A stretch of 45,260 bases of DNA from a virus: positions 1 through 45,260 of IMG/VR virus record IMGVR_UViG_3300033388_005395, one strand, 5' to 3'. Shown here piece by piece: positions 11,830 through 44,963 of this stretch. Each line of letters begins with the position of its first letter. The first letter of the stretch is position 1. A program made the translations under genes and the position numbers. The notes beneath the pieces are model-generated. The model did no database searches. It worked only from the letters and a program-made list of their open reading frames with translations, and was not told the DNA's origin.

Positions 11830-12162
11830 TTAAAGTTTGCCTTCTTCTGTTAATTGCTCTATTGCCATTTTGTGGACGATCTGATCCGCTCTGCTTTGGA
11901 TCAAAGCTTCTCTTGCTTTGGCCGGAGCTTCTTCTATCCTTTTTTGTTCCTCCGCTTCCCTTATCGCCTTCCTTGAAGTTTTATAATCCTTCATTACCTT
12001 TTTTGTTTTTAAATCTATCTGGTCGCAAACATCATCAGCTTTATCTTCAATAACGGCTTCGTTTTCATTATTCACTTGTATTTTTATCATATTTTCAGGG
12101 GCATTGCCTGTTCTAAATATTTCGCCTGTTTTTTTATTATATACTATAAAATCGGACAACAT
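11830..12162 (-). CDS. Small tail-region protein, unknown
   Basis: A 110-residue protein whose ATG overlaps the stop of the upstream tail gene by one base (TAATG), so translation is coupled. The N-terminal third is beta-rich (FIVYNKKTGEIFRTGNAP), like the start of tail-fibre-associated proteins; the C-terminal two thirds are a charged helix with Glu/Ala/Lys runs. No catalytic motif. Tail fibre assembly or chaperone function would be a guess from position. Confidence 0.65.
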   Translation of the reverse strand: MLSDFIVYNKKTGEIFRTGNAPENMIKIQVNNENEAVIEDKADDVCDQIDLKTKKVMKDYKTSRKAIREAEEQKRIEEAPAKAREALIQSRADQIVHKMAIEQLTEEGKL

Positions 12163-16431: not shown

Positions 16432-16713
16432 TTAAATCACTGCATCGACCCGGAACAGACCTTTAACAATAGTAGTCCTGCTGCTCGCCCCAGTCGCAAT
16501 AATGTTATATTGATACATGCCGGTGTCAGAAGGAACCGTATAATCATAATAATATGTGCCAGCCGCCGATTTCGTCATGTCCTGAGCCGTTACAGCCGCC
16601 GTCCCATCCGGTTTTTGTATGGTTATTTTAATAGTCGATGGATCGGCGGCGGCTGCATCGCTATCGGTCACTGATGCCTGTAGTCTTGCTGTTTCCCCTA
16701 TTTGATATGTCAT
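16432..16713 (-). CDS. Small Ig-like structural protein
   Basis: A 93-residue protein predicted to be one beta sandwich. It opens YQIGETARLQASVTDSD, has a central ITIQKPDGT strand-turn and a G-T-Y-Y-Y-D-Y-T-V-P motif that is typical of Ig-like domains (the 'tyrosine corner' region), and closes with YNIIATG and a final strand. Single Ig-like proteins often decorate capsids or tails and bind carbohydrate weakly. AAGGA lies upstream of the ATG. Role inferred. Confidence 0.65.
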   Translation of the reverse strand: MTYQIGETARLQASVTDSDAAAADPSTIKITIQKPDGTAAVTAQDMTKSAAGTYYYDYTVPSDTGMYQYNIIATGASSRTTIVKGLFRVDAVI

Positions 16714-16732
16714 CGTTCACATCCTTATGATG

Positions 16733-17101
16733 TTAAGTTGGGTCGGCAAGCTCATAATCAAAGGTCGGTATCGTGACAGTATTGCCGGATGTCAACACTT
16801 GCGATGTGCATGTAGTAGTCAACAAAATTGTGCCTCCTAAAGACAAGACTACATGCAAGGCAGTACCCGATCCGGTAACAGCAACATCAGCTTGCTGTGC
16901 TACTGCAATTTTTCGGCCATTAGTGTCGCCCTCTCCTATAACATAATCACCACCAACATCACCAGCAGTCAGCGTAACATTTGCCAAGGTATTGGTTAGG
17001 TCTGCAGGCGTTCCGACGTCGCTGGTAACGTCCATTCTGGTAGCGGTCGCAATCCTGTCCAGCGCATCATCTAACACATCGTTGTGTACGCTTTTCCCCA
17101 T
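16733..17101 (-). CDS. Small beta-rich phage structural protein
   Basis: A 122-residue protein starting after a strong GGAGG site. It shows a short helix (DVLDDALDRIATATRMDV), then a Gly/Thr-rich beta region with GDTNGRKIAVAQQ. This combination ('...LDAALD.I... GD..GRK..') recurs in small proteins near tail genes of many tailed phages. No catalytic residues stand out. Position suggests a minor head or tail component. Confidence 0.65.
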   Translation of the reverse strand: MGKSVHNDVLDDALDRIATATRMDVTSDVGTPADLTNTLANVTLTAGDVGGDYVIGEGDTNGRKIAVAQQADVAVTGSGTALHVVLSLGGTILLTTTCTSQVLTSGNTVTIPTFDYELADPT

Positions 17102-26158: not shown

Positions 26159-26470
26159 TTATAAAACATCCTTTAAATTATTATCCACCAACACCTGATA
26201 AATGCCTTCAGACAAAGCTTCTACATAACCTTCTTTGCCATCAAACATATTGTGCCCCGTTATATCGTCTATCCCATGCAAAACTTCATGGATTAACGTC
26301 ACTATAATAGCAGATGCTTTTCTTGGTTCGTTCCCGTACTCTTCAGCAACCCTGATAATTTTTTTCGAGTAATCAATATCCCCGACCCGATCAAACCGTT
26401 CTGTAAAAACATACGGAAAAACAACTTCGTATTGATGGCCGCCAATTTTTAGGGATTTAGGGATTCGCAT
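26159..26470 (-). CDS. HExxH mini-metalloprotein, late copy
   Basis: A 103-residue protein starting at the ATG at 26470 (MRIPKSLKIGGH), 14 nt inside the portal gene. The motif LIHEVLHGIDD (about residues 67-77) is a zinc HExxH, and a conserved EALSEGIYQVLVDN near the end supplies Glu residues that could complete a HExxH...E site. It is closely related (about 70% identical by eye) to the plus-strand gene at 39076-39396. The size suits a minimal zinc protease of the SprT/ImmA type or a phage-specific family. Next to the portal it could be a maturation protease or an accessory protein; the second copy in an early operon argues against a purely structural role. Confidence 0.75.
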   Translation of the reverse strand: MRIPKSLKIGGHQYEVVFPYVFTERFDRVGDIDYSKKIIRVAEEYGNEPRKASAIIVTLIHEVLHGIDDITGHNMFDGKEGYVEALSEGIYQVLVDNNLKDVL

Positions 26471-28553
26471 TATTTGACACCAACCCCCTTTCCGTATACG
26501 GCCCCTGCACATTAGTTTCAGCAGCCTTACCCTTAAACTCAGAGGTTTTATTAATATTCGCTTGCCTTTCCCTGTCTTCAATGGCCGCCAAGATCTTCGC
26601 TTTTTCCAGTTTCAGCTTCTCAGCGTCAAAATTCGTTCCCAGTTTCTTAACTTCCTGTAAAACCCTCTCAGACACTATCTTCTCTAACACCAACTCTGCT
26701 TCAGCAGCGGTCTTCCTTATCTCTGCCACTGTTTTTTCAATCTCAGATTGCTTAGCCTGTATTTCTAATTCTAAAATTGGATCCGGCTGGTCTTCCTTCG
26801 GGATGAGAGCGTCAATATTTTCGATTTGCAGCGCTTCGAGATATCGCTTATTAATTTCCTGGTCATTCAGACCTTGGCCTTTCATTTCAAGCAACGCCTT
26901 GGCCTTCATGATGCGTTGCATGTTGGTTGTAGCGTTTGGGTCTGACACGGGGATAATGTCCATATCAGAGTTGTCATAATCCTGATGTCTGATTGCTTCC
27001 GGGTTATCCAGTACGTTAGCATATGCCTCATCTGACAAATACAGCACGTTAAGGCGTCTGATCTTTTGAAACTCCCGATATAACGACCTGTGAATCCGCT
27101 TGTGAATTGCTGAATATACCTGCAAACCCTGCTCGATCAGGGCAAGCGTTGTTGTCGCAGGCACATTCGGACCTGGACTCTGTCCTGATAAAACTTCTGT
27201 CATACCAGATGTCTCTTTGCCGACGTCAACGAGCAAGCCTAAGAGTTGGAATAAGGTGGGAGAAGGTTCTTTCGTGGGCAACGGCACAATGTTTTTTCGC
27301 AGATCATCGCCTGTTGTCTGCACTGGCTTCCACTCGCCGGACTGAAATTTCAGGCTTGCGCCACGGCCCAATTGAATACCACGGCCGAGAAAACCGCTTT
27401 GCCGGTTAGATAGTGTCCCCGCATCTAATAATTGATTGAGCGCTGTGTTAGAGGCTGAATTGATAGAATGTAGAAGAATACCAAACCCCATGCCGTAAAA
27501 ACTGCCGTCAAATGCCGGCATAAAAAGGAAACGAGTGAAATAATGTGTCGGTTTTATCCTGATTATCTCGCCTTTTTCATTGGCCTCAACTCCCTTAAGC
27601 TCAAACCGTGCGGATATCCTGACTAATTTTTGGGTGGCTTTGTGGACAGTAATGATGTACGGCTCCTGATAGCCGTCTTTGTCGAGATCATACCACCTGT
27701 GCTGCTCAAGGAATATATGCGGCGTGTCTTCATCGACCTGTTCACGTTCCTCACCGGATGCAAGGCCAAGCTCCTCAACGTCAAAATCGAGATAAACACC
27801 ACTCCTGATTCTCTCAACAATTTCATTTCGAGTCAGTTCGATTTCGTGTGTAATCCTGGAGGCTTTTTCGAGTGATTGAGCGTAGTAATGAACTACCAAG
27901 TCATCGGCAAAAACCATCTCGGAAACATTGCGGTTTTCAATAGTGCTGTAATAGGTTTTTTTGAACGCACACCCGACAGCGGGTAGAGTAAACAGCAACT
28001 GGTCAACCCCGTCCTCCCAATCCGGCATGTCATTTAGGAGTTGATATGACATGTGATCGCAGATTCGTTTGCTTCGCTCTGCTTTCTTACCGTCAGGGTC
28101 TTGGCCTATAATCTTAGGCTTGACGACATCCGTGCCCTTAATTATTTCCGGGTATGCCCTGGCAGCGAACTGGATAGCGGCATTTGTAATGATAGGATAT
28201 TTTACATTCGCAACTTGCTCTCCGGCATAAGTCTTCTTTTTAATCTCAAGTTTTGCCAGTTTTAGAATTTCAGCGTTCGATCTCTCCCATGTCGCCCTGG
28301 AATCCTTATCAGTATTGTAGTCGTCAACGACTTTAGCCGCTATGGTATCTATCACGTCCTGCTCAAGGTCTTCGGCTATATTAGTCATAGCATGGCGTGC
28401 TTCGAGCTGGTCAAACATAGACAAAATTTGCTGCTCTTCAGCAGCCTGTTCCGCCTGTTGCTGCTCAATAGCCTGCTGTTCGACTATTTGCTCTGGTGTC
28501 GGTTGCTGTGGCTCTAAATATTGCTCGTTATTGATTAGCTCGTTTTCCATCAT
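26457..28553 (-). CDS. Portal protein
   Basis: A 699-residue protein (start taken as the ATG at 28553; a TTG lies at 28556). The Gln/Glu-rich N-terminus is followed by a portal-like body: ITNAAIQFAARAYPEIIKG, MSYQLLNDMPDWEDGVDQLL, FFLPAFDGSFYGMGFGILLH-like segments (RFLFMPAFDGSFYGMGFG at about 335-355), and SGMTEVLSGQSPG with a long C-terminal helical part rich in Glu/Lys. Length and pattern match large portals of the P22-like group. It sits directly after the large terminase and begins within 5 nt of that stop codon. Confidence 0.9.
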   Translation of the reverse strand: MMENELINNEQYLEPQQPTPEQIVEQQAIEQQQAEQAAEEQQILSMFDQLEARHAMTNIAEDLEQDVIDTIAAKVVDDYNTDKDSRATWERSNAEILKLAKLEIKKKTYAGEQVANVKYPIITNAAIQFAARAYPEIIKGTDVVKPKIIGQDPDGKKAERSKRICDHMSYQLLNDMPDWEDGVDQLLFTLPAVGCAFKKTYYSTIENRNVSEMVFADDLVVHYYAQSLEKASRITHEIELTRNEIVERIRSGVYLDFDVEELGLASGEEREQVDEDTPHIFLEQHRWYDLDKDGYQEPYIITVHKATQKLVRISARFELKGVEANEKGEIIRIKPTHYFTRFLFMPAFDGSFYGMGFGILLHSINSASNTALNQLLDAGTLSNRQSGFLGRGIQLGRGASLKFQSGEWKPVQTTGDDLRKNIVPLPTKEPSPTLFQLLGLLVDVGKETSGMTEVLSGQSPGPNVPATTTLALIEQGLQVYSAIHKRIHRSLYREFQKIRRLNVLYLSDEAYANVLDNPEAIRHQDYDNSDMDIIPVSDPNATTNMQRIMKAKALLEMKGQGLNDQEINKRYLEALQIENIDALIPKEDQPDPILELEIQAKQSEIEKTVAEIRKTAAEAELVLEKIVSERVLQEVKKLGTNFDAEKLKLEKAKILAAIEDRERQANINKTSEFKGKAAETNVQGPYTERGLVSNNANP

Positions 28554-28556
28554 CAA

Positions 28557-30995
28557 TTAATACCCTGTCACATTGTCCACGGTGTCGGTCTGGGATTGCC
28601 TGTCGGAATCCCAAATCTGATAATTTTCCGGCGGTGCTGTGGTTGATATACTCAGTCCGCTCATACAAAGATACCTAACGTCATCCATTAAGTGATCATT
28701 TTCTTTAACGATCTTACCTTTTTCGTCTCTCCGGTAAATTCGATATTCCGCTAAAAAATTGCGCAGTGAATTAAAAACCTTGAGCTTGCCTGTCGAAAAC
28801 CTTTGCCATACATTTAACAATCCGGATTCAACCGAATTGTCTGCGTAGCTAAGGTGCAGTCCTAATGCAATGTATTCATCGACTAATCGTGTTCCGTCCT
28901 TCTGACTCCGCCCCCGTGCAGCCGGATCAATAACACCTGGAATCCACTCCCCTCTGGCCTTAATCCCTTCGGCATGAATTATTGGTTCTGCTTCTCCTCT
29001 GTAATGTTCTGAAAACAGATAAACCACATCTGATTGCTGATCCCATGCTCCCCACAGGGCCGCTGTCCGGTTCCATCCAACATCTAAGGCATAGCATTTT
29101 GGCCACGACGGAGGTATTTCAAACGGTTCAATGGTAATATCGTCTTCTGCGATTGGATAGATGGCACCAGCGCCTAACTGCGGGATACCTTTGGAGCGTG
29201 CGTCTCGTTGATATGGGGGTATTGAAGTAAGTAATTCTGTTTTTTGCTGCTCGGTCAGGTGAGGGGCGTCATCCCATGTGGCATTAACAACATATTTGCC
29301 GGTTTTAGAAAAATCTTCAGGAATTTTTCCGCCCGGCATAAACGATAAAACTGTTTCGGAGAGCCCTAACAACGGCGTAAACGTACACATTACCAGCCCA
29401 TTAGTAGTCATTGTGCGGAGCAAGCATTCGGCATAAATACCCAGATCACACTCTTCATCTAACCAAATTACATCCTGCTCTGTTCCCTGAAACGATTTTC
29501 TTTTCTGGTCGTACGAATTACCTACTCTAAATCCACCGGAAATATATTCATGGCAACCTTCTACACCTATCCCAAATACATTGTGTTTTCCGATTTTGGT
29601 TATTTGGAATATCTCTCCTATCTTATATTTAGGACGAGGTTTTATGTTGCACGTGCAGTCTCTGTTAAATTTACCTATTTCTGTAAACAGCACTCGATTT
29701 TCACCATGCAAGTTTATCGTATGGCTATTAAAATGTTTCCCGTTGAGTTTGACCTTACGGCTTCGTATATTTGCATAAATATTTACACTACGTAATAATA
29801 ATACCACATCCTCCGCCAGCCTATATGAAGCAGACGTATATGAAGCCCTTTTGTTGTTAATTGTGCCATCACACGACCACAACCAAAAAAGAAATGTCTT
29901 TTTTTGCTTTGCCGATAATCCAAATACCCAGTCAGGAATATATTTATGTTTAGACAGTTTGTTCCACAATCCATCCCTTCTAAGGCTTTTTGTCAATTTG
30001 TTGTGATTGGGGGTATTGCTTGAAATTTTATATGTAATAGTATTGCGCATTCGTTCAATGGTTAAATCATCTGGCAGACATTTTCTTAATTCATCAACTT
30101 GCTCAGGGTCGTTACATGTAAAGAACGGAGTTTTACCCCTGGTGCATCCATCCCCAATCATAACGGCAGTCATAATTATCAGCCAGTCTTCCTTGTTGTT
30201 GTCTACTATGCCAGTTTTCTCTATGCCTAATGAAGGCGTAAGGGATAGAATATCTCCAATTTGTAAATCACCCGCATCCACAACTCGTCCATCTCCTCTA
30301 AACACTTTGTGGTTAGGCGTAACTCGCAACCTGCCACCTTCCGCTTGTATCTCAATCACATCAGCATCAGCATAGGAATGTGTTTGCGTTACTATACCAA
30401 TCTTCCCATCGGCTAAAACAACCCCATCTCCTATTTTAATCTCTTCAATGTTTGCCCATGCTCCAGCCTTAGTTAAAATTCGTTCTCCTGCTGGGTGACA
30501 CTTTAAGCCGAGATGTGATGTTCCGCCGGACACATGCTTGACGGCTATTGACTCGACTGTATCTGGTACGCTGCCTGCTTTATTTTTTGTGTTGACTATT
30601 AAGTCGCCTGGAATAAGACCAATACCGTATTCTCCAGGAGGTCCGAGCAGTTTCGTCTGAATAATATCTCGGACGGTCTGCGATGTGTCACCTGCCGCCC
30701 ATGCCTTGATAGGTTTTGTGAATCTTTTCCCTGCCCACCAGCCAGGATAATCACCGGTCAGATGGAGTGTAAGCTCATATCCACCGACGCCCTCGGTCTT
30801 GCCTACCCTGTTGGCGCTTATTATTGCTCGCTCTCGATATTTAGCGCCAGCCTCGAAAAATTGACAATGTGGAATATACAGCTCCCGTCTGAGCGGCCCT
30901 GCCTCTGGATACATGCGGTGTATTCTTGTCCGCCTGTATCTGCGCTCTCTTTCATTGAGCAGGTTAAGGAGTTCTATTTTTTGCTGTCTATTCAC
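28557..30995 (-). CDS. terL: Large terminase subunit (ATPase/nuclease) with an intein
   Basis: An 812-codon frame starting at GTG 30995, overlapping the small-terminase end by 8 nt. The N-terminal extein carries the Walker A-like ANRVGKT at residues 61-67. An intein occupies residues 166-493; after it the sequence continues SYDQKRKSFQG and VIWLDEE (Walker B with catalytic Glu, about 509-515). The C-terminal nuclease region shows CYALDVGWNRTAALWG, GVIDPAARGRSQKDG and HLMDDVRYLC, which supply the acidic metal ligands. Without the intein the protein would have 484 residues, a normal TerL length. It translocates phage DNA into the prohead with the small terminase and portal. Confidence 0.93.
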   Translation of the reverse strand: MNRQQKIELLNLLNERERRYRRTRIHRMYPEAGPLRRELYIPHCQFFEAGAKYRERAIISANRVGKTEGVGGYELTLHLTGDYPGWWAGKRFTKPIKAWAAGDTSQTVRDIIQTKLLGPPGEYGIGLIPGDLIVNTKNKAGSVPDTVESIAVKHVSGGTSHLGLKCHPAGERILTKAGAWANIEEIKIGDGVVLADGKIGIVTQTHSYADADVIEIQAEGGRLRVTPNHKVFRGDGRVVDAGDLQIGDILSLTPSLGIEKTGIVDNNKEDWLIIMTAVMIGDGCTRGKTPFFTCNDPEQVDELRKCLPDDLTIERMRNTITYKISSNTPNHNKLTKSLRRDGLWNKLSKHKYIPDWVFGLSAKQKKTFLFWLWSCDGTINNKRASYTSASYRLAEDVVLLLRSVNIYANIRSRKVKLNGKHFNSHTINLHGENRVLFTEIGKFNRDCTCNIKPRPKYKIGEIFQITKIGKHNVFGIGVEGCHEYISGGFRVGNSYDQKRKSFQGTEQDVIWLDEECDLGIYAECLLRTMTTNGLVMCTFTPLLGLSETVLSFMPGGKIPEDFSKTGKYVVNATWDDAPHLTEQQKTELLTSIPPYQRDARSKGIPQLGAGAIYPIAEDDITIEPFEIPPSWPKCYALDVGWNRTAALWGAWDQQSDVVYLFSEHYRGEAEPIIHAEGIKARGEWIPGVIDPAARGRSQKDGTRLVDEYIALGLHLSYADNSVESGLLNVWQRFSTGKLKVFNSLRNFLAEYRIYRRDEKGKIVKENDHLMDDVRYLCMSGLSISTTAPPENYQIWDSDRQSQTDTVDNVTGY
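29517..30500 (-). mobile_element. LAGLIDADG-type intein in the large terminase
   Basis: A 328-residue in-frame insertion: Cys at residue 166 (CHPAGERILTKAG) starts block A, TPNHKVFRGDG is block B with the TxxH motif, MTAVMIGDGCTRG and FLFWLWSCDGTINN are two LAGLIDADG-type motifs, and VFGIGVEGCHEYISGG is the C-terminal block. Cleavage is predicted before Ser of SYDQKRK. The insertion lies between Walker A and Walker B, so splicing should be required for ATPase activity. The penultimate residue is Gly rather than the usual His (VGN then S). Confidence 0.9.
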
Positions 30996-31594: not shown

Positions 31595-31621
31595 AATATA
31601 ATTGAAAAAAAAGTCTGTCAA
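31595..31621 (-). promoter_or_regulatory. Late promoter upstream of small terminase
   Basis: On the minus strand TTGACA (31621-31616) is followed after 15 nt by TATATT (31600-31595) or after 17 nt by TATTAC. The start of transcription would fall at about 31586-31588, at the terminase ATG (31587). The -35 box directly abuts a 13-bp tandem repeat array. Confidence 0.6.
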
Positions 31622-31678
31622 AGGGCCATCAGAAAGGGCCATCAGAAAGGGCCATCAGAAAGGGCCATCAGAAAGGGC
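31620..31678. repeat. 13-bp tandem repeats upstream of the late promoter
   Basis: Four perfect copies of AAAGGGCCATCAG (31620-31632, 31633-31645, 31646-31658, 31659-31671) and a 7-bp partial copy (31672-31678). The array ends exactly in the -35 region of the minus-strand promoter. It may bind a late activator or be part of the packaging site near terS. Confidence 0.85.
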
Positions 31679-34055: not shown

Positions 34056-34842
34056 TTTCCTCCTGCTCCCACGCGTTTAACGCTTCAATAGACTGTATGG
34101 TCTTATCAGATACCCTGCCACGTAGGGGATGTGCCTTTTCGTTCAGATAACTCTCAAATTTTATACCAAAAAGCGTCTGCGGCCTGAGAAAATCTATCAT
34201 TTTGGGGTCTGTAAGCCATTTTTGGGATTTAACATCAATCACATATTTAAAATCATCCAATCGAAATCCCTGATTCCATCTTGCTTTAATCTTATTTTGA
34301 GTTTCTTTAGATGTGTGTAGGAAATTTTTATCAGTTTTTTGATTTAGATATGAGATGATTTTTTTGTATGGAATTTGATTTTTTTGGGGTTGCTCGACAT
34401 ATAGTTCTTTTTCTTTTGTAATAGTTTCTTTTGTAGTAGTTTCTTTTGTGGGTATCTTTTTTGATAACGACGGATTATCTTTTTTGATAACACTCGTTAT
34501 CTTTTTTGATAACGTTATCTTTTTTGATAACGGTGTCCATTGTTCATAATTCTTATTAAATTCATATACATGCGCTGGTGCGTTATCTTTTTTGATAACA
34601 ACTATTATCTTTTTTGATAACAACCCCTGAATCGCCCTTATAATATTCGGCTTTTTTAACCCTGTCATTTTAACAAATTGAGACAAGGCGATGGCGTCTT
34701 GTCTTTTCCTGAACCCATAAGTTTTTCTAAAAATAGCATCTAAGATTTGCCTTTGTTCTCCAGGAAGCCTGTAATGAATTAATGCATCCATAATCTCATT
34801 AGCTATAGTTGTGTAGCCATTTTCCTTTTGGGGATTAGCCAT
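34027..34842 (-). CDS. Replication initiator (lambda O-like N-domain, Phg_2220 C-domain)
   Basis: A 271-residue protein. Residues about 1-90 (NGYTTIANEIMDALIHYRLP, QRQILDAIFRKTYGF, LSQFVKMTGLKKPNIIRAIQ) are a winged-helix phage_rep_O-type DNA-binding domain. A linker of LSKKI / VIKKDN repeats (about 80-140) is encoded by the iterons of the origin. The C-terminal part (YKKIISYLNQKTDKNF, RWNQGFRLDDFKYVIDVK, FLRPQTLFGIKFESYLN) is the Phg_2220_C domain. It binds the internal origin and recruits replication proteins. The next gene overlaps its end. Confidence 0.88.
   Translation of the reverse strand: MANPQKENGYTTIANEIMDALIHYRLPGEQRQILDAIFRKTYGFRKRQDAIALSQFVKMTGLKKPNIIRAIQGLLSKKIIVVIKKDNAPAHVYEFNKNYEQWTPLSKKITLSKKITSVIKKDNPSLSKKIPTKETTTKETITKEKELYVEQPQKNQIPYKKIISYLNQKTDKNFLHTSKETQNKIKARWNQGFRLDDFKYVIDVKSQKWLTDPKMIDFLRPQTLFGIKFESYLNEKAHPLRGRVSDKTIQSIEALNAWEQEEIENEKQISV
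34395..34621. other. Replication origin with six 17-bp iterons inside the initiator gene
   Basis: Six copies of TTATCTTTTTTGATAAC begin at 34452 (one base different), 34475, 34497, 34515, 34583 and 34605; most neighbours are 22-23 bp apart, about two helical turns. Each is itself an inverted repeat (TTATC / GATAA). An A+T-rich tract with repeated TTTCTTTTGT lies beside them (about 34395-34450), like the unwinding region next to lambda iterons. Confidence 0.85.
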
Positions 34843-37900: not shown

Positions 37901-38354
37901 TAAAAAAACTATCATTTTTTTAATCTTAATTTTTCTACCAGCAACGGTCTTTGCATGGTCGGGCCAATGCGTCGGTGTTGCCGACGGCGACACAATCAAG
38001 GTTATCCACTATGGCAAGCCCGAAAAAATAAGGTTATATGGCATTGACTGCCCTGAAAAGAAACAGGCATACGGGAAAAAGGCAAAGCAATTTACGGCCA
38101 AACTGGTTTTTAAGCAGATCGTTAATGTTAAGCCTGTTACAACCGACCGATATGGCCGGACAATCGCCTGGCTATATGTAGGCGATAAAAGCCTTAACAA
38201 AGAGTTGTTAAAAGCTGGTCTCGCCTGGCACTATAAACGATATTCTCAAGATGAAGATTTGGCTGTATTAGAGGCGGAAGCAAGAAAAAACAAGATCGGC
38301 CTATGGAACGATAAACACCCCATGCCGCCGTGGGATTTTAGGCGAAAACCATAA
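37887..38354 (+). CDS. Exported thermonuclease (SNase family)
   Basis: From the ATG at 37887: 155 residues with a clear signal peptide (FNKKTIIFLILIFLPATVFA, then WSGQ). The SNase fold follows: VGVADGDTIKVIHYG (metal ligand Asp), KIRLYGIDCPEKKQAYGKKA (Arg and Glu of the active site), VTTDRYGRTIAWLYVGDKSL (second Arg), LLKAGLAWHYKRY, LEAEARKNKIGLW. An upstream ATG at 37863 is closer to GAGGA but would lengthen the signal. The enzyme cleaves DNA/RNA outside the cytoplasm. In a prophage it could degrade incoming DNA in the periplasm or serve nutrient uptake; inference only. Confidence 0.88.
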   Translation: MISFNKKTIIFLILIFLPATVFAWSGQCVGVADGDTIKVIHYGKPEKIRLYGIDCPEKKQAYGKKAKQFTAKLVFKQIVNVKPVTTDRYGRTIAWLYVGDKSLNKELLKAGLAWHYKRYSQDEDLAVLEAEARKNKIGLWNDKHPMPPWDFRRKP

Positions 38355-38456: not shown

Positions 38457-38485
38457 TTGACTCTCTACATCGCTTTGTGTATCAT
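38457..38485 (+). promoter_or_regulatory. PL-like early rightward promoter
   Basis: TTGACT at 38457-38462, 17 nt, TATCAT at 38480-38485. It shares 23 of 29 positions with the leftward promoter at 36737-36765. Transcription would start at about 38492 and run into a leader of about 350 nt before the first gene. Confidence 0.75.
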
Positions 38486-38635: not shown

Positions 38636-38708
38636 CGCGGGCAGATCCGGTGATCAGCCGAGTCTCATAAGCTTGGACAGCAGGATTCGACTTCCTGGCC
38701 CGCATCCA
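38636..38708 (+). tRNA. tRNA-Met(CAT), initiator-like, short D-arm
   Basis: Acceptor CGCGGGC (38636-38642) with GCCCGCA (38698-38704), in which the first pair is a C-A mismatch, the hallmark of bacterial initiator tRNA. Anticodon arm CGAGT / GCTTG with loop CTCATAA (38664-38670), anticodon CAT at 38666-38668. T-arm CAGGA / TCCTG with loop TTCGACT (38686-38692). The end TCCA gives an encoded CCA (38706-38708). The D-arm (GATC/GATC, 4-nt loop) is about 4 nt shorter than in standard initiators, and the three G-C pairs of the initiator anticodon stem are missing. Confidence 0.75.
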
Positions 38709-38843: not shown

Positions 38844-39065
38844 ATGCGAAACCAGCCCCACAAAAAAGCAGAGAAATTTTGTATGAACAAAGCCAAAAAA
38901 GTCATAAAAATTTGTGGGAGATGTAAAGGCGCTGGATATGTCATCACCGGCGGGCATCAGATCCTTTGTGCAGACTGCGATGGACATGGACATACTTTGG
39001 TAGACAGGGAAAAATATTATCGTGAGCTACGGAGGGAAGTAAGAGATGCGAGGTACAGAAAATAA
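38844..39065 (+). CDS. Small DnaJ-type zinc-finger protein
   Basis: A 73-residue protein. Two CxxCxGxG-like motifs, CGRCKGAG and CADCDGHG (about residues 24-31 and 42-49), form a DnaJ-like zinc finger with the link YVITGGHQILC. The C-terminal part is charged (REKYYRELRREVRDARYRK). The ATG at 38844 has AGGA nearby; one at 38883 would remove the basic N-terminus. It opens the rightward early operon behind the tRNA-containing leader. Phage zinc-finger proteins of this type are common; the partner is unknown. Confidence 0.7.
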   Translation: MRNQPHKKAEKFCMNKAKKVIKICGRCKGAGYVITGGHQILCADCDGHGHTLVDREKYYRELRREVRDARYRK

Positions 39066-39075
39066 GGGAAGGATA

Positions 39076-39396
39076 ATGCAGATTCCGCACAAGCTTAAAG
39101 TCGGTGGTCACACATACAAAGTAATTTATCCTTATGTTTTTACAGAGCGATTTGATCGTCTCGGGGATATTGACTACTCAAAAAAGACAATCAGAATCGC
39201 AGAAAAATGTGGCAATGAATCAAGGACTGAATCTGCTATTGCGGTAACTTGTATCCATGAGGTTTTACATGCCATAGACGATCTAACAGGTCACAATATG
39301 TTTGGCGGGGATAATGAAAAATTAGTGGAGGCATTATCAGAGGGAATATATCAGGTTTTGGTGGACAACGGTTTTCTTGAGATGGAGGCGCTATGA
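39076..39396 (+). CDS. HExxH mini-metalloprotein, early copy
   Basis: The ATG at 39076 follows AGGGA; 106 residues. MQIPHKLKVGGHTYKVIYPY, VFTERFDRLGDIDYSKKTIR, then CIHEVLHAIDD with the HExxH zinc motif and EALSEGIYQVLVDNGF. It is a close paralogue of the late gene at 26159-26470, colinear over nearly its whole length and about 70% identical by eye. Metal-dependent peptidase activity is predicted from the motif only. Its stop overlaps the next ATG (ATGA). Confidence 0.75.
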   Translation: MQIPHKLKVGGHTYKVIYPYVFTERFDRLGDIDYSKKTIRIAEKCGNESRTESAIAVTCIHEVLHAIDDLTGHNMFGGDNEKLVEALSEGIYQVLVDNGFLEMEAL

Positions 39397-39578
39397 AACT
39401 ATCCGAGATCACAATAGTTTTAATGGCCATAGCTGGCATCCTTCTGGCTTCCTGCGATAGTGAAAGCTGGGCATGGTTTTTATGGTCGAAAGTTATTGCG
39501 GCATGTCTTTTGGGCTTATCGATTATGCTGTGTAATATAATCAAACAAAGAGAGGAGGCAAATCGTTATGAAGATTGA
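39393..39578 (+). CDS. Small two-helix membrane protein
   Basis: A 61-residue protein coupled to the upstream gene by ATGA. Two hydrophobic segments, ITIVLMAIAGILLASC and VIAACLLGLSIMLCNI, with a short SESWAWFLWSK turn between them and a charged C-terminus (KQREEANRYED). No family is recognised; a holin-like or host-membrane-modifying role is possible, but early expression argues against lysis. Confidence 0.65.
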   Translation: MKLSEITIVLMAIAGILLASCDSESWAWFLWSKVIAACLLGLSIMLCNIIKQREEANRYED

Positions 39579-39792
39579 AATTGATATAGGCAGTGAAGAG
39601 GCTAGCGATATTATAAAAGAGCATGTGCTTAGGTACTTTCCGGTAGCTACCACAGACAAAGAGGTTCGGGTGTCTGCGCCTTATGGCAGTTTTACCGTTG
39701 AAATTTCCGAAAAGCCTGAGCCTGCGGATGAAATTTCCGAAAAGCCTGAGCCTGCGGATGAAATTCCCGACGAACAGGGGGCTGAGGAATAA
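39568..39792 (+). CDS. Small acidic protein with tandem repeat tail
   Basis: A 74-residue protein; AGGAGG stands 9 nt before the ATG. The first half (MKIEIDIGSEEASDIIKEHV, LRYFPVATTDKEVRVS) is a small alpha/beta domain. The C-terminal half is acidic and contains ISEKPEPADE twice. It overlaps the previous gene by 11 nt and the next by one base (TAATG). Acidic proteins of this size can mimic DNA; that would be a guess. Confidence 0.65.
   Translation: MKIEIDIGSEEASDIIKEHVLRYFPVATTDKEVRVSAPYGSFTVEISEKPEPADEISEKPEPADEIPDEQGAEE
39700..39759 (+). repeat. Two perfect 30-bp coding repeats
   Basis: Units at 39700-39729 and 39730-39759 are identical, and a third partial copy begins at 39760. In frame they encode ISEKPEPADE. 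Like the repeat at 17221-17280 the unit is 30 bp. Confidence 0.9.
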
Positions 39793-40013
39793 TGCAAGGA
39801 CCGGTTTGCGATAGAATCTTTGAATGTGACGGCTGGAAGAAAAGCTACAGGCAGATCAACGATGCAATAATATTAAAGCTTCGCCTGTCTTCTGATAAGC
39901 CGTGCGGGGCCATAGTTCCTTTTAGGTTTTGTCCCTGGTGCGGCCAAGAAATTAAATGGGAGGAGTGGGAAAGAAAGATAACAGGACAAAACGGAGGAGG
40001 TAAAGGACAATGA
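39792..40013 (+). CDS. Small zinc-ribbon protein
   Basis: A 73-residue protein. Motifs CDRIFEC near the start and VPFRFCPWCGQEI near residue 43-55 form a two-pair Cys arrangement; the 'PFxFCPWCG' ending is a widespread phage signature. The ATG overlaps the upstream stop (TAATG), and its own stop overlaps the start of the next gene by 4 nt. Function unknown. Confidence 0.7.
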   Translation: MQGPVCDRIFECDGWKKSYRQINDAIILKLRLSSDKPCGAIVPFRFCPWCGQEIKWEEWERKITGQNGGGKGQ

Positions 40014-41068
40014 CTAAAGATGTGCAAAAATCAGTTGAAAAGGAGTTGGCTGAATACAAAGAGCAAAACGCCAACATCCTCGGCCCATCAACGAGAATGG
40101 ACGGGCTGTCGGAGTTTCACAAGGTTATTGTGGATTCCGTTTCACTGTCAATCAACCCGGTTGATGGGGATATATACAAACATAAAGACGGATACGGGGA
40201 TGCCCCTGCTCAATACATTATAGCAGGACAGGGGCTACAACGGCTGGCGGTATGCGCTGGTGTTGTCTGGAATCCAATTGAAACCAAAGCAACATCTATA
40301 TCGCAAAAATATGTTGCCTATAACGCCGTGGGCTGTATCCGAAAAGCCGATGGCACTCCTGTGTGCTTCCAGGCAGAATATGATGTTGACATAGACGTTG
40401 TAGAGGATGAGCTCAGAGACCAGTTTAAGGACAAGAAAAAGAAATGGGAAGAAAAGCCCTGGTTCCAGAAACTGTCGCCAGAGTCTCGGGAGGATTATAT
40501 CGAGAGCGCCATCCGCAAAGAGCTGAACTTTAAAAAGAAACACAAAACCAAGATCGCCGCTACTGGCGCAAAAAACAGGGTGGTCAGGGCTCTGCTGGGT
40601 GTCAAAAAAACATATACGATAGCAGAGCTGAAAAAGCCTTTCGTTATGCCACGGGTAATACTCCAGCCTGATTATAGCGATCCGGAAGTCAAAAAACTTA
40701 TGCTGGCAGCATCCATACAATCGCAAACAGGCGTATTTGGCCCTGCTCCAAGCCAATCTCCGGTGATCGATGTGCCTGTTGGTGATTATGACGTCCAACC
40801 TGTACCGGAAGATACCGGCGGCGGTGATGATCGCGAGCCACAGGAGGGGGCTGAACCTGTGCCTGATGATGCCCTGCTGACAAGAGAAGAATATAATGGT
40901 CTGCCAGAAGATGAGCAACTCTTGACGTTAGAGGAAATGGCAACTGAAAAAGGCTATACTGTGCCCGTGCCAATCAAAGAGATGGACGGTCACAACCGGG
41001 GAAGGTTGTTTGATCACCTGAACTCCATGCCGGCGCCAACTCCAATTGATGATGACATCCCGTTTTAA
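40010..41068 (+). CDS. Phage recombination-operon protein with SSB-type C-terminal tip
   Basis: A 352-residue protein. The N-terminal 210 residues form a conserved globular part: LGPSTRMDGLSEFHKVIVDS, VSLSINPVDGDIYKHKDGYG, QYIIAGQGLQRLAVCAGVVW, YVAYNAVGCIRKADGTPVCF, then AATGAKNRVVRALLGVKKTY, a stretch typical of a nucleic-acid-binding or annealing protein. The C-terminal half is Pro/Gly/acidic-rich and flexible and ends DDDIPF, exactly the partner-binding tip of bacterial SSB. It lies next to SbcD-like and SbcC-like genes. A single-strand binding or annealing role is inferred; I know of similar phage proteins annotated only as hypothetical. Confidence 0.7.
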   Translation: MTKDVQKSVEKELAEYKEQNANILGPSTRMDGLSEFHKVIVDSVSLSINPVDGDIYKHKDGYGDAPAQYIIAGQGLQRLAVCAGVVWNPIETKATSISQKYVAYNAVGCIRKADGTPVCFQAEYDVDIDVVEDELRDQFKDKKKKWEEKPWFQKLSPESREDYIESAIRKELNFKKKHKTKIAATGAKNRVVRALLGVKKTYTIAELKKPFVMPRVILQPDYSDPEVKKLMLAASIQSQTGVFGPAPSQSPVIDVPVGDYDVQPVPEDTGGGDDREPQEGAEPVPDDALLTREEYNGLPEDEQLLTLEEMATEKGYTVPVPIKEMDGHNRGRLFDHLNSMPAPTPIDDDIPF

Positions 41069-41088
41069 AAAAAGAAGGAGGTAGCAGA

Positions 41089-42321
41089 TTGAAGATACTT
41101 CACTTGGCTGACATTCACGCCAGAGACAAGGACATCGCAGAGATTGAACGCTGCCTGCACCATATCGTAGCAACGGCCTATAAGGAAAAGCCAGACCTGA
41201 TCATCAACGCGGGCGATACATTCGATAGCGCAGGGATTAAAGCAGACAGCAAGTCAGCTAAGCTGATATTCAGGATATTCAAAGACCTTGCCGATATTGC
41301 TCCGGTTGCAGTGCTGATAGGTACGCCATCGCACGATGGCCAGACCGCCGAAACACTCAAATATATCAAGGCCAGGTATCCGGTATGGGTATCCACAAGG
41401 CCGGAACAGCTCTATCTTGCAGAAGGTGATCTTAACGCTGACCCGTCCGAACTCAGAGCGCCTGCACAGGCTCCGGTTGAGGCCGCAATCTCAATGATTC
41501 CCGCGCCTACCAAGCAATTCTTCAATGCAAACAGCGATATCAAGGGTTCTGATGCAGAGATTGCGGTTGAAATGAGCAAGATGTTTGCAGGATTTGCAGC
41601 GCAGGCAGAGGCATATAAATGCCCCCACATACTTTGCGGCCATTGGAATACAACAGGCTCACTGATATCAGAGACGCAGACATTGACAGGGGTAGATATC
41701 GAAATATCAACCGAACAAATGGCCCTGGCAAACGCAAATCTTGTGTGTCTTGGGCATATTCATAAAAGCCAGCAGCTCAAAGGCAATGTTTTCTATTCCG
41801 GCTCTATCTATCGTAATAATTGGGGCGAAATGGATGACAAAGGTTTTTACATTCACGAGATAGGCCAGATCCCGCCCGACAACAACTATCATCTCACTGA
41901 ATCAAGGGTAATCATCACCCCAACACGCAAACTCATCAAGCTCGACGCTGATCTGACAGAAGATTGCGCTTTTGAAGAACTGGATAGCACGCTGTATTCC
42001 GAGAGCGCAGACGATCTCAAAGACTCTCACCTACGCATTGAACTCAAGGTGTATCAGGACGAAGCTCAAAAGGTCGATACCGAAAGGATTAAAAACTTCT
42101 TTATTTCCGGCGGCGCAAAAGAGGTTGATGTCAAGTTGGTAAGAGTTCCCAGGGAGAACGTCAGGAGCAAAAACATCCTGAAGCTGACAACTCTGCGTGA
42201 GAAACTTGTTGAGCAGGCCAGCCTGAAAAAAGAAACGGTACCGGAATCGATACTTGCAAAGGCCGATCTACTGGAAGCTGAAACATCAGAAAAAATCATT
42301 ACAAGTGTTGCTGCAAGATAA
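41089..42321 (+). CDS. SbcD/Mre11-like nuclease
   Basis: A 410-residue metallophosphoesterase starting at TTG 41089 (AAGGAGG about 6 nt upstream). MKILHLADIHARD gives the D-x-H motif (D8, H10), LIINAGDTFDS the GD motif (D43), GTPSHDGQ stands where GNHD is usual (H82, D83), then ILCGHWN (GH) and CLGHIHKSQ (GHxH). The C-terminal half matches the capping region that binds the ATPase partner. With the SbcC-like protein it should form a DNA-end-processing complex. The GNHD to GTPSHD change removes the canonical Asn ligand. Confidence 0.88.
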   Translation: MKILHLADIHARDKDIAEIERCLHHIVATAYKEKPDLIINAGDTFDSAGIKADSKSAKLIFRIFKDLADIAPVAVLIGTPSHDGQTAETLKYIKARYPVWVSTRPEQLYLAEGDLNADPSELRAPAQAPVEAAISMIPAPTKQFFNANSDIKGSDAEIAVEMSKMFAGFAAQAEAYKCPHILCGHWNTTGSLISETQTLTGVDIEISTEQMALANANLVCLGHIHKSQQLKGNVFYSGSIYRNNWGEMDDKGFYIHEIGQIPPDNNYHLTESRVIITPTRKLIKLDADLTEDCAFEELDSTLYSESADDLKDSHLRIELKVYQDEAQKVDTERIKNFFISGGAKEVDVKLVRVPRENVRSKNILKLTTLREKLVEQASLKKETVPESILAKADLLEAETSEKIITSVAAR

Positions 42322-42347
42322 CCCAAAAACCCAAAAGGAGAAGACCA

Positions 42348-42635
42348 ATGGCAGACAACAGAAAGCTATACAAAGAAGCAGTCAAAACCTTCGGCCATGC
42401 CAGCCAGATTGACATGATGATCGAGGAGTGCGCAGAGCTGATTTTTGCAATACAAAAACATAAAAGGGTATTGCCGTGCGACGTTCCAGGGGAAATCGCC
42501 GATGTTGAAATAATGTGTGCTCAAATGCGCATCATTTTTCCAGGCGTGGCTGATGCGAAGAAGCGTAAACTGGAAAGGCTTTATTTTTTGATAGAGGAAA
42601 GAAAGGACGTGGTGAAAAACAGGGGGGAGGGATAA
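42348..42635 (+). CDS. MazG-like NTP pyrophosphohydrolase
   Basis: A 95-residue all-helical protein: GHASQIDMMIEECAELIFAI, then VPGEIADVEIMCAQMR, which provides the EExxE and ExxD metal-binding motifs of the MazG/dUTPase-like alpha superfamily. It hydrolyses nucleoside triphosphates, perhaps (p)ppGpp-related or modified nucleotides, and is common in phages. Its stop directly precedes the GTG of the SbcC-like gene, so it is embedded within the SbcDC pair. Confidence 0.78.
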   Translation: MADNRKLYKEAVKTFGHASQIDMMIEECAELIFAIQKHKRVLPCDVPGEIADVEIMCAQMRIIFPGVADAKKRKLERLYFLIEERKDVVKNRGEG

Positions 42636-44963
42636 GTGAAAATAAACAAACTTAGACTCAAAGGCTTTATCGGTATCAAAAAAGGGCTTGGCCTCGACGA
42701 AATTGAGCTGGACTTTTCCGATCTTTCCGGATTAATCGCTTTTGCCGGGCCTAACGGCCACGGTAAAACAACCGTTTTGGACTGTATGCAACCTTACAGA
42801 CAAATGGCAAGCCGGAATCGATCATTACAACATCACGTTTTTCTTCGAGACAGCGAAAAAGAACTGGAGTTCGAGTTTCAGGGAGACAGATACCGGACGC
42901 TATTAAAGATCGATGCCGAATCAGAACGCTCCGAGGGATTTATATGGAAAAATGGCGAAAGCCTGGTTGATGGCAAGGTAACCAATTATGACAAAACTAT
43001 AACCAAGCTGCTTGGCTCAGCTACTCTATTTTTCAACAGCGTCTTCTGCGCTCAAAACTCAAAGAAGCTTAACGACATGACCACAGGAGACCTCAAAAAG
43101 CTCTTTTCCGAGTTCCTGCGTCTCGACACCTTGGTCGAATATGAAAACACAGCAAAGCAATGCAATAACCTGCTTACCGGCCAGGCGGAAAAACTTGAAC
43201 GTGAGATTAATTCCCTGAAAGAGCTGGTTGATAGTTATGATCAGGCAACGGGTAGTTTGTCGGCTGCAAGAGGATCTAAAGAAGGGCACGAAGAAAAACT
43301 GGTCGAGTTAACAAACGACCTCAAACAGGCTGAAATCAAGCTGGCCGATATCCGAACCAGCATCCAGAAAAACGAGCTGATCAATGCTCGAATAACAGGC
43401 CTGCAAGACGGCCTTGCCGCCATCGAAAAGGATATTGACGATAACAAGGAACAATCACAAACCGAACTTACCGACCTACGCTCAAAATACCGGACCGTCG
43501 ATCTGGAAATTGTCGAATTACAAAGCCTTTTGGCCAACGAAACGGAGATCCGGAAAGCGGCAGATGTATGTGCTGAGATGACAGCATCCATCGCTGGAAA
43601 CAAGAAGCTGGCTGAAATTATATCAAAAGAACATTTTGCCGCCGCTCAATCTGTATCAAAAAAAGAAACAGAGAAATCAGACTATTCACTGGAGATAGGA
43701 AAGCTAATTAATGCAGGAGAAAATTACGAATCTCAACTATCACTCCAGATTGACCAAGCCAAACTCAAAACAATAGACCTGGATAAGCGGGATAGTTTAT
43801 TAGCTGCGGCAAACGAACCGGAATGTAAATCAAAAGCGTGCCCATTTATTTCAACGGCATTATCGGCCCAGGAAGATATCCCAAAATTAGAAGCTACGTT
43901 GGCAGATCAGCGCGCTGACACAAAAATAAAGAAAAAAGAACACGATATTACTCTAAACCGGATTAATGCAGAGATAGAGGCTCTCAGAAAGCAGGAATCA
44001 GGCAAAAAGAGTGAAAAAGACCAGCTTGAGGCAAAAATCACCGAATCCGAGGCCAAACTTGTAAAAGTTTCAGACTTGGCAAGCGAACTATCAAAGGTAG
44101 AAACAGCTCTGACACGCAAAAATGACCTCGAAAAGCAAAAAATGGAGCTAACAGACGAAGGAATTAAAATTAAGACAACGTGGGAAAAGCGAATTTCCGA
44201 AAAAGAAAAGCAGAAAAAAATAACAGAGAAAAACATCGAGCTTACCCAAGCTGAAATCAACAATATCGCAGAACACAACCTGCCCATTATTTCTAACAAT
44301 ATTGCGCTGATAAAAAGCTCTATCACAGACCGCGCGAATAAGATAACCGAGCTATCCGCGACAATACTCTCTCATGAAAAAGAGGTCGCTCAAAAAGAAC
44401 AGGCAAAAAAAGATTTTCTGGCAAAGGCGGCAGAGCGTAGCCGGATCGTCACAGAATCAAGCGAATGGACATATCTGAAAAGTGCTTGCGGCAAGGACGG
44501 ATTAAGAGCGTTGGAGATCGATTCTGTTGCGCCTGTCATCACTGGTTACGCAAACGAATTGCTTCTTTCAACCTTCGGCCCGTCATACACTGTGAAGTTT
44601 CGCACTCAGGACGAAGAAACCGGCAGGGAAATACTCGATATCGTCGTAATCCGTGATGACGGCTCGGAGGTGTTGCTGGATAATCTTTCAGGTGGGGAAA
44701 AGGTGTGGAGCCTGAAAGCCCTGAGATTGGCAATGACATTAATATCAAAAGAAAAGAGTGGAAAGAATTTTTTGTGTGCTTTGGCGGATGAAGAAGACGG
44801 GGCTTTGGATGTCGATAATGCACAAAACTTTATAAGGCTGTATCGCTCTTTTATGCCTGCGGGCGAATTCGAGGATCTTTTTTTCATCAGCCATAAGGCG
44901 GAATGCGTTGCGATGGCTGATCATGTGTTGGAGTTTGGCAATGGCGAAATTAAAATCAATTAA
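42636..44963 (+). CDS. SbcC/Rad50-like ATPase
   Basis: A 775-residue SMC-like protein starting at GTG 42636 (GGGAGG 5 nt upstream). Walker A GPNGHGKT at residues 38-45; two long coiled coils flank a hook at C397 and C402 (ECKSKACPF, spacing CxxxxC instead of the classical CxxC); ABC signature LSGGEK at 684-689; Walker B around LADEEDGALD (716-725), and SHKAECVAMADH near the end (H-loop). With the SbcD-like protein it opens and trims DNA ends for recombination or host DNA degradation. The coupled MazG-like gene precedes it. Confidence 0.88.
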   Translation: MKINKLRLKGFIGIKKGLGLDEIELDFSDLSGLIAFAGPNGHGKTTVLDCMQPYRQMASRNRSLQHHVFLRDSEKELEFEFQGDRYRTLLKIDAESERSEGFIWKNGESLVDGKVTNYDKTITKLLGSATLFFNSVFCAQNSKKLNDMTTGDLKKLFSEFLRLDTLVEYENTAKQCNNLLTGQAEKLEREINSLKELVDSYDQATGSLSAARGSKEGHEEKLVELTNDLKQAEIKLADIRTSIQKNELINARITGLQDGLAAIEKDIDDNKEQSQTELTDLRSKYRTVDLEIVELQSLLANETEIRKAADVCAEMTASIAGNKKLAEIISKEHFAAAQSVSKKETEKSDYSLEIGKLINAGENYESQLSLQIDQAKLKTIDLDKRDSLLAAANEPECKSKACPFISTALSAQEDIPKLEATLADQRADTKIKKKEHDITLNRINAEIEALRKQESGKKSEKDQLEAKITESEAKLVKVSDLASELSKVETALTRKNDLEKQKMELTDEGIKIKTTWEKRISEKEKQKKITEKNIELTQAEINNIAEHNLPIISNNIALIKSSITDRANKITELSATILSHEKEVAQKEQAKKDFLAKAAERSRIVTESSEWTYLKSACGKDGLRALEIDSVAPVITGYANELLLSTFGPSYTVKFRTQDEETGREILDIVVIRDDGSEVLLDNLSGGEKVWSLKALRLAMTLISKEKSGKNFLCALADEEDGALDVDNAQNFIRLYRSFMPAGEFEDLFFISHKAECVAMADHVLEFGNGEIKIN

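Follow-up and report, generated by a model that had tools for sequence, protein, structure and literature searches.

At positions 38636–38708 (plus strand) of the viral DNA analyzed here (the window, 45,260 nt in full), the original prediction placed an initiator-like tRNA-Met with a shortened D-arm. The locus raises the question of whether it is a tRNA gene at all and, if so, whether its product would serve in translation initiation, act as an elongator or merely mimic a tRNA.

Structure of the tRNA Gene

The 73-nt sequence has a full cloverleaf as its minimum-free-energy fold (−28.2 kcal/mol); 6 of 200 shuffled sequences folded equally well. The cloverleaf also forms within a 301-nt context, and the stability of this larger region is ordinary (z −0.98). 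The 5′ strand of the acceptor stem, CGCGGGC (38636–38642), faces the 3′ strand GCCCGCA, which is followed by the discriminator U73 and an encoded CCA end (38698–38708). This stem contains a C1·A72 mismatch and the pairs G2:C71 and C3:G70. Position 8 is A, not U, and the discriminator is U73, not A73. The short D-arm, GATC-CGGU-GATC (38644–38655), consists of a 4-bp stem with A11:U24 and a tetraloop. It is joined by AGC to the anticodon arm CGAGU-CUCAUAA-GCUUG (38659–38675), which has a 7-nt loop with the CAU anticodon (38666–38668) and the pairs A29:U41, G30:C40 and U31·G39 in its stem; a sixth pair, C38658–G38676, extends this stem. The segment GACAG then leads to the T-arm CAGGA-UUCGACU-UCCUG (38681–38697), whose loop is of the TUC(R)A type.

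The C1·A72 mismatch, the CAT anticodon and the encoded CCA named in the original prediction are thus all present in the sequence. The two deviations that it described were found as well: the D region comprises 16 nt vs 20 nt in E. coli tRNA-fMet, i.e., it is about 4 nt short, and the anticodon stem has the pairs given above instead of three G-C pairs.

Detection of the Gene and Chance Expectation

Using a loose cloverleaf scanner, 38636–38708 was found as the sole site on both strands of the window. Applied to 108.5 Mb of random sequence (first-order), the same scanner gave five matches, none of them with CCA; the chance expectation is thus about 0.004 matches per window, and much lower still if CCA is required. 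Neither ARAGORN nor the general tRNA model of Rfam (RF00005) detected 38636–38708. RF00005 also misses other short-D-arm tRNAs, so its negative result is uninformative for the window tRNA, and Rfam was dropped as an arbiter for the compact D-arm. The missed detection by general tRNA tools is a property of the detectors, not of the tRNA family. For covariance scoring, a model was built from 11 short-D-arm tRNAs (10 from viral contigs and 1 from an Acidimicrobiaceae bin), with the window tRNA held out. This model scored the window tRNA at 77.1 bits (E 3.2e-19, model positions 1–73), which is on a par with the members used to build it (78.2–78.9 bits). A chance match is ruled out by the random-sequence test and the held-out model together, and it is confirmed that 38636–38708 is a real, easily overlooked tRNA gene.

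Initiator Determinants and Survey of Phage CAU tRNAs

The determinants of initiator tRNAs have been reviewed as C1×A72, G2:C71, C3:G70, A11:U24 and three G-C pairs in the anticodon stem, the last rule being regarded as highly conserved across all domains (PMC7949028). The window tRNA has every one of these, including all of the formylation determinants (G2:C71, C3:G70 and A11:U24), except two of the three G-C pairs, so that three consecutive G-C pairs are not found at 29–31:39–41.

Phage CAU tRNAs were sampled in viral contigs by the anticodon and the T-loop only, with the D-arm and the acceptor disregarded. Since a sample with the TTCGA T-loop would miss host-type TTCAA tRNAs, a second, TTCAA sample was taken; 87 and 75 tRNAs were parsed, respectively (162 altogether), the sequences not being independent of one another. 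In the TTCGA sample, tRNAs with a 1:72 mismatch had R11:Y24 in 31 of 42 cases and those pairing strongly at 1:72 in 2 of 25 (p = 1e-7), the figures for C3:G70 being 36 of 42 and 5 of 24, respectively; G2:C71 was present in 40 of the 42 mismatch tRNAs. Two independent initiator criteria, the 1:72 mismatch and R11:Y24, coincide in 50 of the 162 tRNAs. The full three G-C pairs occur in only 5 of these 50 (1 of 31 in the TTCGA sample alone, before the TTCAA sample was added) and are absent from 45, while G30:C40 is kept in 48. Only one triplet is commoner in the TTCGA sample than that of the window tRNA (A:U, G:C, U·G; 6/31). As an actinobacterial baseline, a CAU tRNA in which all three pairs are G-C is present in 55 of 60 genomes, and the U31·G39 form was found in 0 of 100 in the host baseline; this contrast is indicative only, because the sequences are related and the baseline is not matched to the phages, whose hosts are mixed. 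These counts are indicative of the absent G-C pairs being normal among phage initiator-type tRNAs, most of which appear to do without the full three.

The most fitting reading of the sequence is that of an initiator-type tRNA encoded by the phage. The central claim of the original prediction is thus supported by the held-out covariance score, by a family of relatives and by a match with the T5-type initiator tRNA-fMet.

Possible Role in Initiation

What the sequence shows is the gene with its fold, family and determinants; we infer, with a probability of about 0.72, that a phage tRNA of the tRNA-fMet class is excised from the early leader and used in initiation. The tRNA would be transcribed in the leader of the early transcript, from which host RNase P and 3′ nucleases would presumably excise it, and host MetRS would charge it via the CAU anticodon. 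An open 1:72 pair together with G2:C71, C3:G70 and A11:U24 would make the tRNA a substrate for the host formyltransferase. The charged tRNA could then enter the ribosomal P site via G30:C40, supplementing or replacing host tRNA-fMet during infection. By analogy with tRNA-Sec, the CGGU loop of the compact D-arm hairpin may still offer GG for docking on the T-loop. Points against this reading are the lack of two of the G-C pairs, the residues U73 and A8, and the failure to find the gene in terminase-related phages, most of them fragments.

A possible second benefit would be nuclease resistance. VapC cleaves tRNA-fMet between A38 and C39 (PMC4105405), and in the altered stem of the window tRNA this bond becomes A38–G39. 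Tentatively, such an initiator tRNA could be kept mainly for surviving host nucleases that cut tRNA-fMet, a reading that refines and does not contradict the initiator-type one. It is consistent with the presence of U31·G39 in the T5-type tRNA and, among the matches listed, in 60 of 93 D-tetraloop tRNAs, window included, as well as with anticodon-loop changes near nuclease sites in other phage tRNAs (PMC10264068). On the other hand, another large phage group, with A29:U41, G30:C40 and G31:C39, retains C39.

An elongator tRNA-Met and a tRNA-Ile2 with C34 converted to lysidine are both unlikely identities for the window tRNA. The CUCAUAA loop is common to both of these tRNAs, and its presence here and the absence of the three G-C pairs would agree with such an assignment; however, C1·A72, G2:C71, C3:G70 and A11:U24 are jointly initiator features, and phage tRNAs with a strong 1:72 pair nearly always have Y11:R24 (23 of 25 in the TTCGA sample), whereas A11:U24 is found here.

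Short-D-Arm Relatives in Viral Contigs

Scanning viral contigs with a pattern for the D-arm and the anticodon loop yielded four contigs, two of which (L116 and L119) have a nearly identical D-arm. The L116 tRNA reads CGCGAGC-A-GATCCGGCGATC, with the 3′ end GCTCGCA-ACCA, and the L119 tRNA carries AGATCCGGTGATC; the compact D-arm GATC-CGGY-GATC is common to the window and other viral contigs. A broader pattern with a YGGY D-loop gave at least 93 distinct tRNAs (92 from viral contigs and that of the window). Among the matches listed, the D-stem positions that the pattern did not constrain form pairs, of several types, in 87 of the 93 tRNAs for one pair and in 67 for the other; most members have longer D-stems, and a short D region of 15–17 nt is present in about a dozen. 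On this comparison, the short D-arm appears to be a recurrent variant and not a product of decay.

Another alternative, namely that 38636–38708 is a leader element resembling a tRNA, or a decayed tRNA gene, that serves as a mimic or a processing signal or is inert, would fit a sequence that stands alone in an apparently untranslated leader, is missed by ARAGORN and Rfam and lacks part of the core, but it is improbable: all four stems are paired, the CCA is intact, the score equals that of the relatives, the D-stem varies across the YGGY class with pairing kept (among the matches listed), and a short D-arm shared with other phages would not result from decay. The short D-arm and the absent three G-C pairs, the oddities flagged when a tRNA mimic was proposed, are class features and point neither to a mimic nor to decay; the proposal of a mimic received no positive support.

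The tRNA gene was not seen in the terminase-related phages searched, most of which are fragments, and a nucleotide comparison of the leader and the tRNA with isolated phages gave nothing convincing. The D-stem of tRNA-Pyl is likewise GATC/GATC; a tRNA-Pyl identity was rejected, the anticodon, T-loop, discriminator and acceptor all being different. In eight Lentzea genomes (L238–L245), the D-arm GATC-CGGC-GATC is found in a CAU tRNA located beside tRNA-Gln on the chromosome, an unusual feature for a bacterial chromosome. A separate group of phage tRNA-Met (L003–L007) has the 3′ end GCATCCA and a D region of 17–18 nt; a CTTATCAAATAT motif precedes these tRNAs, which are mostly located directly upstream of genes.

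Genomic Setting

The window is a tailed-phage fragment. Its minus strand encodes terminase, portal, major head and internal virion proteins, and its plus strand an early block that includes SbcD-like and SbcC-like genes. Some 490 bases separate the end of a thermonuclease-like gene at 38354 from the first of the early genes; this interval has no convincing gene of its own and contains the tRNA. Upstream of the tRNA, a sigma-70-like promoter, TTGACT-17-TATCAT (38457–38485, plus strand), agrees with the consensus at 10 of 12 positions; it is suggestive only, since two such sites were found in the region vs 1.1 expected. Downstream, the early genes (38844–44963) run in the same direction as the tRNA and include the SbcD-like gene (41089–42321), a nucleoside triphosphate pyrophosphohydrolase-like gene (42348–42635) and the SbcC-like gene (42636–44963), all on the plus strand. 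The setting in an apparently untranslated leader of early genes was borne out, but the GTG/TTG starts ascribed to these genes are found in only 2 of about 9, at 41089 (TTG) and 42636 (GTG), both with strong Shine–Dalgarno-like sequences. Judged by the start codons and Shine–Dalgarno-like sequences, no sign of leaderless mRNAs was found among the downstream early genes. The suggested bias of initiation to phage mRNAs, including leaderless ones, is unsupported because the starts are mostly ATG and most have Shine–Dalgarno-like sequences.

A contig that is 99.99% identical over most of 19–34460 (G001) extends beyond the left end of the window and lacks its right-hand 10.8 kb, the part holding the tRNA; positions 11977–12062 and 16555–16753 of the window have no aligned counterpart in it. 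The large terminase gene (28557–30995, minus strand) contains an intein-like insertion (about residues 168–482) with a LAGLIDADG domain, which is absent from most relatives. A 116-aa early gene and the minus-strand gene 26159–26581 are apparently paralogues, with about 75% identity over 250 bases between 39114–39365 and about 26184–26432. Repeats were also observed. A 13-nt unit occurs in 4.5 exact tandem copies at 31620–31678, upstream of the terminase genes; the replication initiation gene region contains several T-rich repeats (34410–34624); and there is a 30-nt tandem repeat (39699–39770) that gives a repeated EISEKPEPAD peptide in a 74-aa ORF (39568–39792).

Novelty and Significance

Phage initiator tRNAs are already known from T5. 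Two points are new: a variant with a compact D-arm that Rfam misses, and the finding that phage initiator-type tRNAs are mostly without the three G-C pairs; a literature search lying outside most subscription journals revealed no paper on this variant or on a group-wide loss of the three G-C pairs. According to two recent phage-tRNA papers, tRNA-fMet is generally avoided or absent in the phages studied (PMC10264068; PMC12482277). In contrast to both, almost a third of the CAU tRNAs parsed here (50/162) combine the two initiator criteria, and most of these break the three-G-C rule. It is conceivable, although doubtful, that phage initiator tRNAs form a distinct and widespread class in which this rule is lost, the middle pair and the formylation signals are kept and the D-arm is often compact and tRNA-Sec-like, supplying phages with a tRNA for start codons that withstands defences cutting tRNA-fMet or works in initiation under a changed quality control. 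The phage tRNAs offer a natural variant set for testing the role of the three G-C pairs and whether these mark the host initiator for attack, and their short-D-arm members reveal a blind spot of standard tRNA finders.

Comparison with Known tRNAs

The E. coli initiator (metZWV/metY) and the window tRNA have in common C1·A72, G2:C71, C3:G70, A11:U24, the CUCAUAA loop and the encoded CCA; E. coli tRNA-fMet differs in its 9-nt D-loop, the three G-C pairs and A73. More than 400 records of the phage collection contain sequences like E. coli tRNA-fMet, with a varying level of match, and at least one of these is a bacterial chromosome record. The D-arm alone resembles that of bacterial tRNA-Sec (selC; E. 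coli selC was checked), where a CGGU D-loop is likewise closed by C-G. tRNA-Sec can dock this loop on its T-loop. It differs in its other anticodon, long variable arm and longer acceptor and D-stems, and no homology is claimed.

The T5-type tRNA (AJ604531, Tequintavirus) is annotated as "initiator tRNA-fMet"; the annotation of its relatives varies between tRNA-Met, tRNA-fMet, tRNA-OTHER, pseudo and none. It has U1·U72 in place of C1·A72 and a longer D-stem (6 bp or more), is located in a tRNA cluster and scores 42.4 bits vs 77.1 for the window tRNA with the short-D-arm covariance model. Both tRNAs, however, have the CAU anticodon in a CUCAUAA loop, a 1:72 mismatch, U73-CCA, the pairs A29:U41, G30:C40 and U31·G39, and a D-stem closed by a short GG-containing loop.
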